A stretch of 64,000 nt of DNA. It comes from Microvirga aerophila (GTDB lineage Bacteria; Pseudomonadota; Alphaproteobacteria; Rhizobiales; Beijerinckiaceae). The position numbers and the translations under genes are program-made. The notes below the pieces were generated by a model. The model was not told the DNA's origin, searched no databases, and worked only from the letters and a program-made list of their open reading frames with translations. This document shows, piece after piece, positions 754 through 6,886 of this stretch; the first letter of the stretch is position 1, and each line of letters opens with the position of its first letter. Where the stretch lies: the NCBI RefSeq assembly GCF_003332305.1, contig NZ_QOIO01000008.1:62001-126000 (forward strand), read 5' to 3'.

Positions 754-782
754 TTGAACTTGCCTAGGGTCGTTGTTACATC
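754..782 (+). promoter_or_regulatory. Candidate sigma70 promoter for the LeuRS-like gene
   Basis: TTGAAC at 754-759 and TACATC at 777-782 are separated by 17 bases. The predicted transcription start falls near 789-790, which is also the first base of the candidate leader ORF, so the leader could be leaderless. The -10 match is weak. Confidence 0.3.
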
Positions 783-789
783 TAAGACC

Positions 790-870
790 ATGATCACGTT
801 CGCTCAGATTCTGCGACTTCGCCTCCCGGTCGTTCCGACGGCCGGGTCTTTCGTCGTTTTCGCGAAGTAA
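790..870 (+). promoter_or_regulatory. Candidate Leu-codon leader peptide overlapping a terminator-like hairpin
   Basis: A 26-codon ORF begins MITFAQ and continues Ile-Leu-Arg-Leu-Arg-Leu-Pro, with Leu codons CTG, CTT and CTC at 811-825. Immediately after the third Leu codon lies a 9-bp GC-rich hairpin (826-847) with a 4-nt loop, followed by a pyrimidine-rich stretch with TTTC and GTTTTC. A ribosome stalled on the Leu codons would cover the 5' arm. The gene that follows 50 bases downstream is a leucyl-tRNA synthetase homologue, which makes leucine-responsive attenuation conceivable. There is no clear Shine-Dalgarno and no obvious anti-terminator, so the evidence is positional only. Confidence 0.35.
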
Positions 871-919
871 TCCGGGCGACGCTCCTCTCTGAGTTCGCCC
901 GAACGCAGAGAGTCGAGCC

Positions 920-2236
920 ATGAAAGCCAATTTCTACTGTGCCGTGATGTTCCCATATCCGTCCGCGGCGGGTCTGCATCTGGGGCACTACTACAACTAT
1001 GCCATTATCGATTCCTATTGCCGCTGGCTGAGACACCGCGGCACGACAGTCTTCCAGCCCTTCGGCTATGACGCCTTCGGTCTGCCGGCCGAGAACTACG
1101 CCCGCAAGGTCGGACGTGACCCGACCTATGTAACCTACGAGAACATCGCGCAGTTTAGGCGACAGATGGCCCGCATGAACACCTGCTACGAGGAGCGCCT
1201 GATCACCTGTGACCCTTCTTACATGAAGTGGACGCAGTGGATCTTCACGCGCCTGCACGAGCGCGGGTTGGCCTACAAGGCCTGGGGTGAGGTGAACTGG
1301 TGCCCGTCCTGCGAGACCGTGCTGGCCAACGAGCAGGTCATCGACGGGCACTGCGAGCGCTGCGGCAGCACGGTCGAGCGACGGGACATGAACCAGTGGT
1401 ACTTCCGGATCACGGACTACCGGGACCGTCTGATCGCCGGCCTGGACCGGATCGACATGCCGGATTCCACCAAGCGGATGCAGCGGGCGTGGCTGGCGAA
1501 CCTGAGGGATTGGTGTATCTCGCGACAGCGGACATGGGGCTGCCCGATCCCGGTCGAGGGCGAGACGGACACCCTGGACACGTTCGTGGACTCGTCCTTC
1601 TACTACCTGCGCTACCTGACCGACAGCGACACCGAGTTCCTGCCGGAGGGCTGCTACCAGCCCGTCGACCTGTACGTCGGCGGGGCCGAGCACGCCTGCA
1701 TGCACCTGATCTACACCCGGTTCATCCACATGGTGCTGTTCGATATGGGCATCGTCCCGCAGGAGGAGCCGTTCAGGAAGGTGATCCACCAGGGTGTCAT
1801 CAGGAGGGACGGAGCGAAGATGTCGAAGTCGAAGGGGAATGCTGTCAGTCCCGACGACTACGATCCCGACGAGCTGCGGCTGTACCTGATGTTCATCGGT
1901 CCTTATTCAGAGGGCGGGGAGTGGTCGGACGAGCACCTCGTCGGCCAACGCAGGTTCCTGTCGCGGATGAGGCGCTGGCTGGCAGATCGAGGCTCCGACC
2001 GGATCGAGCTGTCGCCCTTCGAGGATCAAGTGGACTGTGACGTGCGGGCCTTCAAATTCAACAAGATCGTCAGCGGCTTCATGGAGTTCTACAACCGTCA
2101 CAAGAACCTGAGACCAGACGAGGAAACAGCTCGGCGAGTGGAAGAGGTGCTAGGTGTATTCGCACCCGGATTTTGTGCTCTACACTCTGAGGACGAGAGA
2201 AGCCGTACAGTCCCGGGCTTGCTCACGCCTTCATGA
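920..2236 (+). CDS. Compact leucyl-tRNA synthetase-like protein lacking the editing domain
   Basis: A 438-residue class I synthetase core, about half the length of LeuRS. It carries HLGH at residues 20-23, a zinc module CPSC (128-131) with CERC (145-148), the RQRTWGCP segment and KMSKS at 300-304, so the adenylate-forming machinery looks intact. The CP1 editing domain of about 180 residues, normally inserted before RDWxISRQ (R196), is absent. The second zinc/insert region before ETDTLDTFVDSS is also missing. The C-terminal anticodon-binding helical bundle stops after about 60 residues and the LeuRS C-terminal domain is gone. It could activate leucine without proofreading or full tRNA recognition, act on another carrier, or be a decaying paralogue. 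The start has AGAG-type spacing. A duplicate chromosomal leuS is expected but is not in this window. Confidence 0.8.
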   Translation: MKANFYCAVMFPYPSAAGLHLGHYYNYAIIDSYCRWLRHRGTTVFQPFGYDAFGLPAENYARKVGRDPTYVTYENIAQFRRQMARMNTCYEERLITCDPSYMKWTQWIFTRLHERGLAYKAWGEVNWCPSCETVLANEQVIDGHCERCGSTVERRDMNQWYFRITDYRDRLIAGLDRIDMPDSTKRMQRAWLANLRDWCISRQRTWGCPIPVEGETDTLDTFVDSSFYYLRYLTDSDTEFLPEGCYQPVDLYVGGAEHACMHLIYTRFIHMVLFDMGIVPQEEPFRKVIHQGVIRRDGAKMSKSKGNAVSPDDYDPDELRLYLMFIGPYSEGGEWSDEHLVGQRRFLSRMRRWLADRGSDRIELSPFEDQVDCDVRAFKFNKIVSGFMEFYNRHKNLRPDEETARRVEEVLGVFAPGFCALHSEDERSRTVPGLLTPS

Positions 2237-3086: not shown

Positions 3087-4448
3087 TCATTTTAAATCCT
3101 TGTACCAAGTTGTTCCATTCGGCGTGTCTTCCAGGACCACTCCCTTAGCCCTCAGAGCGTCCCGGATGCGATCTGACTCAGCGAAGTTCCCCTCCTTACG
3201 GGCGTCCGTACGCTGCACGATCAAGGCTCTGACCTCTTCATCCACGTGTCCTCGTAGAAACTGATCATTGTTGTAGAGATCAAACCCAAGAATACTGCCG
3301 GCCTCCCGCATGGCCGCTGCGATGGCAACCCGATCTTTCGGATTACCCGTCATCAGATCGCGGGCGAGCCAATGCATCTCCGCAATCGCCAAAGGCGTGT
3401 TCAGATCGCTCGCGAGGGCCTCCAGGACAGGCGCGTGATGACCTTTCGTTACTTGATTAGCGGCAATGTCGTCGAGAGCTCTATGCCAGCCTTGAAGTGT
3501 CGTGGCAGCCTCCCGAAGCAGCTGCTGGGTCCAGTCAAGCGGGGAGCGGTAATGCGCCATCAACAGCGCTAGCCGGATCACCGCACCAGGAACCCCTTGA
3601 TTGAGCACATCCCGGACCGTGGTGAAGTTCCCGGCACTCTTGGCCATCTTCTCCCCGTCAATGAGAAGCATGCCGTTGTGGATCCAGTAGCGAGCCAGGG
3701 GATCTCCGTCATGAGCGCACTGGCTCTGGCTGATCTCGCAGTCATGGTGAGGAAAGCGCAGATCAGCTCCGCCGCCATGAATATCGATGGTATATCCCAG
3801 CACAGCCTCGATCATGGCAGAGCACTCGATGTGCCAGCCTGGACGTCCTCGGCCATAGGGACCATCCCAGCCGGGTTGGTCGACAGTGGAAGGTTTCCAC
3901 ATGACGAAGTCCGAGGGATGGCGTTTATAGGCGGCGGGATCGACACGCGCGCCTGCCTCTAGATCTTCTTGGAGATGGCGGGAGAGCAGTCCGTGGGCTG
4001 GATAGGATGGCACGTGAAAGAGCACGTGCCCTTCGGCCTCATAGGCGTGCCCTCTGTCGATCAAACGGCTGATCATGTCGAGCATCCGGTCAATGGCTCC
4101 GGTAGCGCGAGGCTCGTGGGTTGGACGCAACACACCCAATGCCTCCGTGACCTCATGGTAGTCTTGGATCGTGCGCTCCGTCAGGTCGCTGATGCGGTCG
4201 CCATCCGCCCTAGCCCGTTCCATGATCTTGTCGTCTACATCAGTGAAGTTCCGGGCGTACACAACTTGCGGGTAATGATGTTGGAGCAGACGGAAGAGCA
4301 CGTCGAAGACCACTGCTGGCCGAGCATTGCCCAAATGCGGCGTGTCATAGACTGTAGGACCACAAACGTACATGGTGATCCGGTGTGGATCCTGAGGGAC
4401 AAAAGGCTCTACCGTTTGTGTCATCGAATTGTGCAGACGAAGGTTCAT
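3087..4448 (-). CDS. cysS: Cysteinyl-tRNA synthetase
   Basis: Charges tRNA-Cys with cysteine in the cytoplasm. The 453-residue protein is full length for the family. It shows YVCGPTVYDTPHLGNAR (zinc ligand Cys and HIGH-type motif), GWHIECSAM, GGGADLRFPHHDCE (zinc ligands) and GEKMAKSAGN (KMSKS-type loop), plus the C-terminal helical domain. ATG 4448 is chosen over the more distal ATG 4484 because AGGAGG lies 7 bases upstream. The gene is 173 bases downstream of the CDC48-like ATPase on the same strand and may be co-transcribed. Whether this is the only cysS or a second copy cannot be told here. Its pairing with a LeuRS-like gene 850 bases away is notable. Confidence 0.93.
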   Translation of the reverse strand: MNLRLHNSMTQTVEPFVPQDPHRITMYVCGPTVYDTPHLGNARPAVVFDVLFRLLQHHYPQVVYARNFTDVDDKIMERARADGDRISDLTERTIQDYHEVTEALGVLRPTHEPRATGAIDRMLDMISRLIDRGHAYEAEGHVLFHVPSYPAHGLLSRHLQEDLEAGARVDPAAYKRHPSDFVMWKPSTVDQPGWDGPYGRGRPGWHIECSAMIEAVLGYTIDIHGGGADLRFPHHDCEISQSQCAHDGDPLARYWIHNGMLLIDGEKMAKSAGNFTTVRDVLNQGVPGAVIRLALLMAHYRSPLDWTQQLLREAATTLQGWHRALDDIAANQVTKGHHAPVLEALASDLNTPLAIAEMHWLARDLMTGNPKDRVAIAAAMREAGSILGFDLYNNDQFLRGHVDEEVRALIVQRTDARKEGNFAESDRIRDALRAKGVVLEDTPNGTTWYKDLK

Positions 4449-4621
4449 GAAGTTACCTCCTGTACAATCTGGAACCACCACCATTGGTACCTTGGAGATG
4501 TATAGAGAGGGAACCGAATGACCTGGCTGTTGCGCCTGGGCAGACAGAGCTAGGCTTGCGCAGCTGGACTTGGAGCGATGTGCTTGGGCCGGGCAAGGCC
4601 TCTGTTCTCCTATTCAGAAGC

Positions 4622-6886
4622 CTATCTCAAAGGCAGGAAACCAATCACCTGACGCTGCGGTCCTTGCTGCTTCAGAGTGCCCACCATGTCTTGGTATTCG
4701 CGCTCCATTTCCGGCGTGACCGAGGGCCGGGTCTCCTGCAGGGCGTGCTCAAAATGGGCCATAGTGATGGTCTGCGCATCGAGGGCTTCACGCAAGGCCA
4801 GTAGACCGGCCCGGCGTGTGAGATCCTCAAGATCGGCCCCGGTAAAGCGGCTCGTCCGTTCCGCGATGCTGTCCAGATCGACATCCGACCCCAGAGGCAT
4901 AGCCTTGGTGTGAATACCGAGGATGTGATGGCGGCCCTGGGCATCGGGAACCGGCACGTAGATCAGCTCGTCGAAGCGGCCCGGCCGGAGCAGGGCAGGA
5001 TCGATCAGGTTAGGCCTGTTCGTGGCGGCCATGACGACGACGCCCTGCAGCTCCTCCAAGCCGTCCATCTCAACCAGGATCGTGTTGACCACCCGCTCCG
5101 TCACGGCCGGTTCGCCCAGGCCGCCGCCGCGGACGGGGGCGAGGGAATCGATCTCGTCGATGAAGATCACCGTCGGGGCGACCTGGCGGGCGCGGGCGAA
5201 GAGGCGGGAGACCTGCTGCTCGGATTCTCCGTACCATTTGGACAGGAGGTCTGACGATTTGGTCGCCACGAAATTGGCCTGCGCCTCGCGGGCGACAGCC
5301 TTCGCCAGCAGGGTTTTGCCGGTTCCGGGCGGACCGAAGAGCAGGAAGCCCTTGGCAGGCCTGATCCTAAGGCGCCGGAACGACTCCGGGTTCTTGAGCG
5401 GAAGCTCCACGCCTTCGCGCAGGCGGGTTCTAGCCTCCTCCACACCGCCGATGTCGTCCCAGGTGACGTTGGGCACCTGGATCATGATCTCACGCAACGC
5501 CGAGGGCTGGACCCGCTTCATGGCGTTGAGGAAGTCCTGCCGCATGACCTGCAGGCTCTCGAGGACATCCGAGGGAATGCCGTCCCTGAGATTGATGCCC
5601 GGCAGGATGCGCCGCAGGGAGTCCATGGCCGCTTCGCGGGAGAGCGCCGCGAGATCCGCACCGACAAAGCCGTAGGTGGTGCGGGCGACCTCGTCGAGGT
5701 TCACGTCCTCGGCTAGAGGCATGCCGCGCATGTGGATCGCTAGGATCTCGCGCCGGCCGGGCTCATCTGGAACGCCGATGACGATCTCCCGGTCGAAGCG
5801 GCCCGGACGACGCAAAGCCTCGTCAATGGCCTCACGACGGTTGGTGGCGCCGATCACCACGATGTTCTGGCGCGGCTCCAGCCCGTCCATGAGGGTGAGC
5901 AACTGCGCCACGACGCGTCGCTCAACCTCGCCTGTGACTTCCTCACGCTTGGGAGCGATGCTGTCGATCTCATCGATGAAGATGATCGCGGGCGCATTCT
6001 GCTGAGCCTCCTGGAAGACCTGCCGCAAACGCTGCTCGGACTCGCCGTAGTGCCGGCCCATGATCTCGGGGCCGGCAATGTGAAAGAACCGTGCTTCCGT
6101 CTCGTTGGCGACGGCCCGGGCCAGCCGGGTTTTGCCGGTGCCAGGAGGACCGTAGAGCAGAACCCCTTTTGGCGGATCGATGCCGAGGCGCTGGAACAGC
6201 TCCGGATGGCGCAGCGGCAGTTCCACCATTTCGCGCACCTGATCCACCGTGCTGCCGAGGCCGCCGATGTCGTCATAGGTGACGTCTCCCCGTCGCACTT
6301 CCTTCGGCGCCTCGAACTGCGGACGAAGATCGACTTCTGTCTTGGCCGTGACCTGAACGATGCCGCGGGGCTCGGTCGAGACGACCACGAGACGGATCTC
6401 TTGTAGGCCGAAGGCCGGAATATTCAACATCCCGCTCAGCTCGTCGGGCAGGCGGGAGCCGGCGATGCTGGGGGTGCAGACGGAGGTGGAGATCACGTCG
6501 CCCGCCGTGAGCGGGCGCTGATGGAAGGTGCGCTTCAGGGCATCGCTGCAACCCTGCAGGCGGAATCCTTTCTGGGCGGGAGCGAGCACGACTCGCGCTG
6601 CTGGGCGAACTTCGGCCCTTTTGACCTCGACGTAATCGCCACTGCCGACCCCGGCATTGACGCGCTGGAGGCCATCGAGGCGGAGGATGTCGAGCCCTTC
6701 GTCCTCAGGATAAGGGCCGACGACCAGAGCCGTCGTGTGGCGTTTGCCGATGATTTCGATAGCCTCTCCCTCTTGAAGAGCCATCGCTGTGAGTGCCTGA
6801 TGGCTCATCCGAGCTATGCCGCGTCCTGCATCGCCAAGGGGAGCATTCGCGACCTGGAGGCGTACCGCCTGTCCAATTTCTGCCAT
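4622..6886 (-). CDS. CDC48/p97-type AAA ATPase (VAT-like)
   Basis: A 754-residue ATP-driven unfoldase. The N-terminal double-psi barrel domain (about residues 1-190) begins RLQVANAPLGDAGRGIARM. Two AAA modules follow, each with Walker A GPPGTGKT and Walker B FIDEIDS, and each with arginine-finger-type sequences (RRPGRFDRE and LRPGRFDEL). The length and order match archaeal VAT and bacterial CDC48 homologues found in Methylobacterium relatives and actinobacteria. In those it is presumed to extract or unfold proteins for degradation. No protease gene lies nearby. cysS follows on the same strand. Confidence 0.9.
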   Translation of the reverse strand: MAEIGQAVRLQVANAPLGDAGRGIARMSHQALTAMALQEGEAIEIIGKRHTTALVVGPYPEDEGLDILRLDGLQRVNAGVGSGDYVEVKRAEVRPAARVVLAPAQKGFRLQGCSDALKRTFHQRPLTAGDVISTSVCTPSIAGSRLPDELSGMLNIPAFGLQEIRLVVVSTEPRGIVQVTAKTEVDLRPQFEAPKEVRRGDVTYDDIGGLGSTVDQVREMVELPLRHPELFQRLGIDPPKGVLLYGPPGTGKTRLARAVANETEARFFHIAGPEIMGRHYGESEQRLRQVFQEAQQNAPAIIFIDEIDSIAPKREEVTGEVERRVVAQLLTLMDGLEPRQNIVVIGATNRREAIDEALRRPGRFDREIVIGVPDEPGRREILAIHMRGMPLAEDVNLDEVARTTYGFVGADLAALSREAAMDSLRRILPGINLRDGIPSDVLESLQVMRQDFLNAMKRVQPSALREIMIQVPNVTWDDIGGVEEARTRLREGVELPLKNPESFRRLRIRPAKGFLLFGPPGTGKTLLAKAVAREAQANFVATKSSDLLSKWYGESEQQVSRLFARARQVAPTVIFIDEIDSLAPVRGGGLGEPAVTERVVNTILVEMDGLEELQGVVVMAATNRPNLIDPALLRPGRFDELIYVPVPDAQGRHHILGIHTKAMPLGSDVDLDSIAERTSRFTGADLEDLTRRAGLLALREALDAQTITMAHFEHALQETRPSVTPEMEREYQDMVGTLKQQGPQRQVIGFLPLR

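Follow-up and report, generated by a model that had tools for sequence, protein, structure and literature searches.

Leucyl-tRNA synthetase (LeuRS) is the textbook case of a synthetase whose editing and C-terminal domains are said to be needed for its long-armed tRNA. In the window, by which we mean the whole stretch of 64,000 nucleotides analysed here, the gene at 920..2236 on the + strand encodes a LeuRS-like protein without either domain (mini-LeuRS). Is this a broken gene or a working enzyme, and what does a bacterium gain by keeping such a copy beside a normal LeuRS? The most likely answer from our analysis is that the gene is not broken but encodes a genuine, compact enzyme of translation acquired from a phage, which makes it a more interesting finding than a truncated gene. 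A phage clade that has kept no more than the catalytic core, zinc module and helical bundle allows a direct test of how little of a LeuRS suffices, bears on how huge phages serve the tRNA sets that they encode, and provides a compact starting point for engineering synthetases.

Architecture and predicted structure

Starting with ATG, the gene runs for 438 codons (438 aa) without interruption. Its best NCBIfam match was TIGR00396 leuS_bact (E 1e-125), with a score of 420.9 bits that lies under the equivalog cut-off of 548.4 bits, in line with the missing domains. The metG model scored 130.9 bits, far below leuS, and we rejected an identity as methionyl-tRNA synthetase. We also rejected an identity as a SerRS-like amino acid:carrier protein ligase; such ligases presumably have a class II catalytic core, whereas the mini-LeuRS is a class I enzyme. 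No Pfam anticodon domain was found in the protein up to E 1.

Within 920..2236 (+), the protein consists of a Rossmann core, split at the CP1 position at about aa 193/197, a zinc module, KMSKS and a shortened helical bundle. It thus has the class I core with HIGH and KMSKS of a bacterial LeuRS and lacks the CP1 and C-terminal tRNA-binding domains of one. The class I signature HLGH (aa 20-23, 977..988, +) has H20, G22 and H23 invariant in 33/33 rows of the family alignment, as are C128, C131, C145 and C148 of the Cys4 zinc module (1301..1363, +). The KMSKS loop (aa 300-304, 1817..1831, +) was placed by alignment, and the junction that stands in place of the CP1 editing domain (aa 193-197, 1496..1510, +) by alignment and structure superposition. 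The preliminary description had reported HLGH, KMSKS and a zinc module from the sequence, and their conservation across the 33 rows confirms them. It had also reported the loss of the CP1 domain and the second insert, and a pairwise alignment with Thermus thermophilus (Tth) LeuRS, made in pieces, bears this out with three gaps: Tth 226->418, which is the CP1 editing domain; Tth 436->487, about 50 further residues; and Tth 577->636, the leucine-specific (LS) second insert.

We built an AlphaFold2 model of the mini-LeuRS from the 33-row alignment (mean pLDDT 88.9, pTM 0.88), in which residues 423-438 form the sole longer stretch below 50. Its best PDB match by Foldseek was Mycoplasma mobile LeuRS (3ziu, E 2.6e-36, TM 0.88 by query length). 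VIA-align matched 419 residues of the predicted structure to Thermus LeuRS (Z 37, 1.9 A), residues 1-423 lying on Tth 28-793, and the alignment stopped at Tth 793 of 878. According to the model, the helical bundle is therefore kept though shortened, and the C-terminal domain is absent; the earlier claim that most of the tRNA-binding C-terminus is missing stands for the C-terminal domain and falls for the bundle. The predicted LeuRS core shares with Thermus LeuRS (1h3n/2v0c) the fold, leucine pocket, HIGH, KMSKS and zinc module, and differs in lacking CP1, the LS insert and the C-terminal domain.

The synthetic site is intact. Across the 33 rows, 18 of the 21 positions examined never vary, and the other three vary little: the same residue stands in 31 rows at M10 and at S304, and in 29 at S302. 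As the leucine site of the Thermus enzyme we take M40, F41, Y43, D80, F501, S504, Y507, H541 and H545. Eight of the nine leucine-binding residues of the mini-LeuRS are invariant (M10, in 31/33 rows, is the ninth), and F11, Y13, D51, F222, S225, Y228, H258 and H262, together with the H, G and H of HIGH, occur in 33/33 rows. Roles in leucine binding have been described for Y43, D80 and F41 in another LeuRS (PMC9424281).

A zinc-sparing backup role was considered and rejected: the mini-LeuRS keeps all four zinc cysteines, and the corresponding stretch of the housekeeping LeuRS in the window's genome is free of cysteine. The gene has a GC3 of 0.83, and its two neighbours have 0.63 and 0.79. The terminator noted previously has a candidate by eye, a stem at about 2440-2461 followed by a T-rich stretch, which was not among the sites reported by a terminator scan restricted to loops of at most 8.

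Phage relatives and their tRNA genes

A tblastn search of phage records gave a single close match, LR745206.1, an uncultured phage of 634,780 bases, whose protein is 60.9% identical over residues 6-418 in one piece. Scanning viral contigs twice yielded 28 loci and then 7, of which three lie on contigs already found; the total is 32 contigs of 13-508 kb, four of which (L087, L089, L091 and L097) are near-identical to another. With LR745206.1 these make 33 phage contigs or records with a mini-LeuRS; 8 exceed 200 kb (up to 635 kb), and the 25 under 200 kb may be fragments. In 33/33 the reading frame is uninterrupted throughout the match and stops at a shared end, with 408-487 codons and the same architecture and boundaries, namely no CP1, no LS insert and an end at ..PGF or an equivalent. 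The window's protein and the other Microvirga copies have the same boundaries, and the 29 aligned phage proteins are 54-68% identical to the window's. What had been read as an abrupt end after FAPGF turns out to be the normal end of the family, followed in Microvirga by a variable tail of 2-21 residues.

We searched 14 phage records whole (13 with minis, and LR756501) and found a T4-type Gp23 capsid gene in 8 and a terminase over the Pfam cut-off in 7, with neither Gp23 nor terminase at E 0.01 in L073, L098, L099 and L100. In PHROGs, the three matching families are all annotated as of unknown function. In a tree of 36 rows, which left out the truncated L013 and the near-identical L087, L089, L091 and L097, the six Microvirga proteins formed one clade (100/100) inside the phage rows, next to L095 (96/90) and then L098 (89/80). 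The contig of L095, the sister of the Microvirga clade, carries a Gp23 gene (E 6.5e-88).

We also built an outgroup tree on shared columns with 24 full-length LeuRS rows, after 19 of 61 rows that were redundant or fragmentary had been removed. The 14 minis formed one clade (SH-aLRT 100) with Microvirga inside it, grouping with L095 (91) and with L095 and L098 (99), and three cyanobacterial CP1-less LeuRSs were sister to the mini clade (94). The CP1-less LeuRS of the 735-kb phage LR756501 also lacks the editing domain, has 508 aa, and grouped apart from the minis, on a long branch beside the normal LeuRS of the window's genome (99), which suggests that CP1 was probably lost more than once and that compact CP1-less LeuRSs probably arose more than once. 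The nearest kin of the Microvirga mini-LeuRS are viral, its clade nesting among phage proteins. A transfer from phage to bacterium is likely rather than proved, because the mini clade is rooted through long branches. The Microvirga gene has a GC3 of 0.83, compared with 0.23-0.48 in five of six phage relatives examined and 0.82 in L098; the bacterial copy may thus have adapted to its host or come from a GC-rich phage. The GC-rich viral contig L098 also has an RNA 2'-phosphotransferase gene (Tpt1/KptA; 5079-5687), a possible tRNA-repair gene, about 3 kb from its mini-LeuRS. In LR756501.1, the CP1-less LeuRS of separate origin (L065 7986-9512) also ends in APGF, and five tRNA-Leu genes and a GIY-YIG gene (L065 6620-7164) lie just upstream.

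To survey the neighbourhood of the phage genes, we ran ARAGORN on 30 phage loci, comprising 29 minis (the four near-copies L087, L089, L091 and L097 dropped) and LR756501 (L065). A total of 152 tRNA genes were found in 16 of the 30 loci, and 14 showed none in the stretch examined. tRNA-Leu accounted for 34 of the 76 tRNA genes within 2 kb of the synthetase gene versus 5 of the 76 farther away (Fisher 6e-8, pooled over related loci), and when labels were shuffled within loci the mean was 25.3 and 0 of 20,000 shuffles reached 34. At least one tRNA-Leu lay within 2 kb in 8 of the 16 tRNA-bearing loci, one of them (L065) outside the mini clade, and three or more in 7 of the 16, LR756501 among them; L077, for instance, has seven and L086 has five. 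The distance from the end of a tRNA-Leu to the mini-LeuRS gene is 16 bases in L092 and 22 in L086. Six of the 16 loci had no tRNA called Leu and 2 had a single one more than 5 kb away; the single nearest tRNA was Leu in 7 of the 16, which is not significant (P 0.095). The simplest reading of this clustering is that the phage mini-LeuRS charges tRNA-Leu. Huge phages have been suggested to charge their own tRNAs with their own synthetases, and carry up to 15 synthetases and, in complete genomes, up to 67 tRNAs (Al-Shayeb et al. 2020, PMC7162821). The main text of that paper does not contain the word 'leucyl', and its passages on phage synthetases and tRNAs do not mention a stripped LeuRS family or its capture by a bacterium.

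Some of the tRNA genes are of interest in themselves. Leucine-anticodon tRNA genes of only 74-78 nt with a short variable loop occur in L065, L071, L075, L077, L086, L100 and L104, loci that also hold normal long-armed ones. Such tRNAs would suit a synthetase that has no C-terminal domain, but we rejected a tie between the mini-LeuRS and short-armed tRNA-Leu: a control search with one short tRNA (L086 6129-6203) matched 360 phage records, including 131 from Mycobacterium phages, and 19 of 20 were annotated tRNA-Leu among the best 20 of the 360 matches, so that similar 75-nt genes are also present in ordinary phages. In phage LR745206, three tRNA-Gln genes lie directly before a GlnRS gene (L064 10909-12904), a parallel to the Leu pairing, and a 508-kb phage contig has a tRNA with a CTA anticodon (L072 1525-1597; Pyl according to ARAGORN), pointing to possible amber recoding.

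Microvirga copies and their leader

At E 1e-60, 7 of the 48 Microvirga genomes contained the mini-LeuRS gene, namely the window's genome, Microvirga sp. 3-52, M. soli, M. lupini, M. rosea, M. lotononidis and M. sesbaniae. The proteins are 88-91% identical to the window's. All seven genomes also have a normal LeuRS. In the window's genome it is an 876-codon frame, to which the DNA of the other six is 86-89% identical over about 2.1 kb. The mini-LeuRS genes themselves are 87-90% identical in DNA, about as much as the normal LeuRS, suggesting that the mini has been in these species for about as long as they have been diverging. In all 15 pairs of six copies, dN/dS was 0.07-0.16 (Nei-Gojobori, 409 codons), indicating purifying selection. 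Two copies are damaged: that of M. sesbaniae is N-terminally truncated and begins only at about aa 144, and that of M. lupini lacks the leader and its own first codons.

Beyond the genus, we found no mini-LeuRS in the family, order or phylum, whose genome samples overlap and were searched at E limits that would miss distant minis. In the family, 6 of 298 genomes matched at E 1e-60: the window's genome, two further Microvirga minis, and three genomes of another genus, whose matches cover aa 3-194 of frames of 859-916 aa and are not minis. In the order (1/397) and the phylum (1/398), only the window's own genome matched at E 1e-80. A scan of genome contigs with six 8-residue patterns from the mini-LeuRS, which a distant bacterial mini could escape, gave 46 loci, comprising five Microvirga copies and 41 more distant ones mostly aligned over part of the query. 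Among plasmids, 150 records matched, one being a close copy (M. lotononidis) and 149 being below 60% identity; the best 40 of the 150 were listed.

The DNA shared between the Microvirga copies is essentially the leader and the gene. The flanks differ between genomes, with the exception of a common downstream flank in M. sp. 3-52 and M. sesbaniae. We scanned ten flanking ORFs at five other copies; six had a Pfam family, none of which recurred, and among the ten there was neither a carrier protein nor an antibiotic or inhibitor biosynthesis cluster. The neighbours thus do not point to a carrier protein or pathway. No tRNA genes were found in the 64,000-nt window or near the six other Microvirga copies, which therefore do not share the neighbouring tRNA-Leu of the phage loci. 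In the window, a CysRS gene and a gene for a CDC48-type double AAA ATPase lie downstream of the mini-LeuRS (3087-6886, -) and are not common to the other copies within the stretches compared. The M. lotononidis gene sits on a 1.18-Mb plasmid, and a predicted AAC(3)-like gene (69.9% identity) follows it by about 1.7 kb (L069 18019-18852, plasmid record). Upstream, at 560-686 of the window, a perfect 17-nt inverted repeat surrounds 93 nt in a MITE-like element about 70 bases before the putative promoter; a counterpart of this stretch with 74% identity is present on contig C109.

About 130 nt before the gene form a conserved leader, with 88-94% identity between the window and each of the four other copies that keep upstream DNA; between the same copies, four-fold sites of the gene are only 62-72% identical. 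The block occurred once in each of these five genomes and nowhere else in the 48 genus genomes (E 0.01), and had no Rfam match. It contains a 26-codon leader ORF, MITFAQILRLRLPVVPTAGSFVVFAK (790..870, +), whose frame, length and stop are kept in 5/5 copies retaining upstream DNA and in which RLRLPVV and the stop are invariant. We take its RLRL to resemble macrolide-stalling leaders; leucine codons are not enriched in the window's ORF (3/26). Inside the ORF lies a terminator-like 9-bp hairpin (825..846, +), whose pairs are invariant and show no covariation, and terminator-like sites by scan numbered 3 in 2.2 kb versus 1.5 expected. A second hairpin (885..912, +) pairs the probable Shine-Dalgarno AGAGAG (907-912) with CTCTC. 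A possible promoter, TTGAAC-17-TACATC (754..782, +), was recognised by eye and corresponds in the four other copies to TTGACC-17-TACATT, TACGTT or TACTTT; a consensus promoter scan reported none, this candidate included.

The leader holds parts of an attenuator. Its fold is more stable than that of shuffled sequences (z -3.4), and RNAalifold found 0 of 45 pairs with a compensatory change, by which the fold is neither proved nor refuted. We imitated a stalled ribosome by masking the RLRL codons or the stop codon while folding the five leaders. The unpaired probability of the Shine-Dalgarno was 0.02-0.19 unmasked versus 0.004-0.17 masked; it stayed mostly paired in all five, with a slight rise in two (L009 and L069). 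Masking did not open the start site, and its release by translational attenuation of the ErmC type is thus not supported. Expression of the mini-LeuRS in Microvirga may nevertheless be conditional.

Role of the compact enzyme

We regard it as probable that the gene encodes an editing-less compact LeuRS of phages that charges tRNA-Leu, was captured by Microvirga and has been kept as an accessory second LeuRS. The enzyme would activate leucine with ATP and load it on tRNA-Leu without editing. It belongs to a distinct clade of compact LeuRSs, about 410-430 aa long, carried mainly by large tailed phages, which would use it to charge tRNA-Leu, often encoded beside the gene. An ancestor or relative within Microvirga may have captured one such gene, and some species would have kept it behind its own leader, presumably expressing it under particular conditions. 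Activity on tRNA-Leu is the most likely function. The enzyme may be of low fidelity, and error-prone Leu-tRNA, suggested previously, is a fair inference since no editing domain is present. The C-terminal domain missing here has been described to bind the variable loop of tRNA-Leu and to take part in aminoacylation (PMC3834818), which counts against this reading. The short variable arm of an Agrobacterium tRNA-Leu makes one contact only with the C-terminal domain of AgnB2 (PMC5059758), and with a contact so minimal, loss of the domain may be tolerable. A bolder version, which we consider unlikely, is that the smallest natural LeuRSs arose in huge phages, probably on more than one occasion, dispensing with editing, the LS insert and the variable-arm-reading domain and also loading short-armed, class-I-like tRNAs with leucine anticodons. 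Microvirga would then have domesticated an inducible, low-fidelity one, switched on by ribosome stalling at the RLRL leader, to cope with a lack of leucine or with an inhibitor of LeuRS, the price being errors such as norvaline incorporation.

Other readings start from the same observations. The decaying copy raised in the preliminary description, a truncated LeuRS without function, would fit the damaged genes of M. sesbaniae and M. lupini and the lack of a copy at E 1e-60 in 41 of the 48 genus genomes; it is nonetheless very improbable, as selection in 15/15 pairs refutes it for the intact copies, and 33/33 phage homologues have the same boundaries, the catalytic residues are kept and the leader is conserved. 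The same description had suggested a purpose other than translation, with leucyl-adenylate made for a carrier protein, small molecule or signalling. That the domain binding the variable arm of tRNA-Leu is lost and that no tRNA gene lies near the Microvirga copies would suit such an enzyme, and there is precedent in the divergent extra LeuRSs of archaea, one of which, Sulfolobaceae LeuRS-I, makes Leu-AMP without charging tRNA (PMC9437257). We hold this to be unlikely given the carriage by phages with tRNA-Leu beside the gene in 8 of 16 tRNA-bearing loci (L065 being outside the clade), the retention of the tRNA-facing catalytic core, helical bundle and zinc module, and flanks that differ save in one pair, where the six ORFs with a Pfam family out of ten include no carrier protein.

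A resistance or self-immunity LeuRS, induced through the leader and working when an inhibitor hits the housekeeping enzyme, is quite unlikely. The inhibitor could be agrocin/TM84-like or a benzoxaborole-like compound acting on the CP1 site, and CP1 is absent from the mini-LeuRS. The plasmid location in M. lotononidis and the RLRL codons and strong hairpins of the leader also agree with such a role, as does AgnB2 of Agrobacterium K84, a plasmid-borne second LeuRS in a soil alphaproteobacterium that likewise lacks the LS domain and confers self-immunity to TM84 (PMC5059758). AgnB2 is otherwise larger, however, and keeps its editing and C-terminal domains. Several bacteria also have a LeuRS without the LS domain (PMC5059758). 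Like AgnB2, the mini-LeuRS is an accessory copy, but the ten flanking ORFs scanned at five copies contain no antibiotic or inhibitor cluster, and the phage family argues for a role in translation first. For the captured translation enzyme that we favour, Anabaena ThrRS T2, a stress-induced second synthetase weak in editing, offers a model of a conditional, less accurate copy; it differs in its amino acid, in an editing domain that is degenerate but present, and in its zinc/Zur control (PMC4787780).

Among the matches listed in a search of open-access titles and abstract openings, none describes a LeuRS from which CP1, the LS insert and the C-terminal domain are all absent, and none a mini-LeuRS in phages, Microvirga or cyanobacteria. 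M. mobile LeuRS is likewise a natural LeuRS without CP1 (PMC3834818) and without the LS domain (PMC5059758). It has 637 aa, making the mini-LeuRS about 200 aa shorter, and its C-terminus continues for about 80 residues beyond the part aligning with the mini. We take this extension to be the usual C-terminal domain, and CP1-less enzymes of the M. mobile type to keep the C-terminal part and to be the cell's own LeuRS. The mini-LeuRS has no C-terminal domain and is an extra copy beside a normal LeuRS; it groups with phage proteins in trees that did not include M. mobile LeuRS. The LeuRSs on cyanobacterial plasmids of Nostoc, Aulosira and Kovacikia are CP1-less like the mini, but have 588-606 aa and continue past the core, and that of Nostoc, unlike the mini, matches the Pfam anticodon domain. 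They are encoded at L066 15010-16776, L067 15010-16776 and L068 14965-16785, and on the Kovacikia plasmid the gene lies head-to-head with an ilvD-like dehydratase gene.
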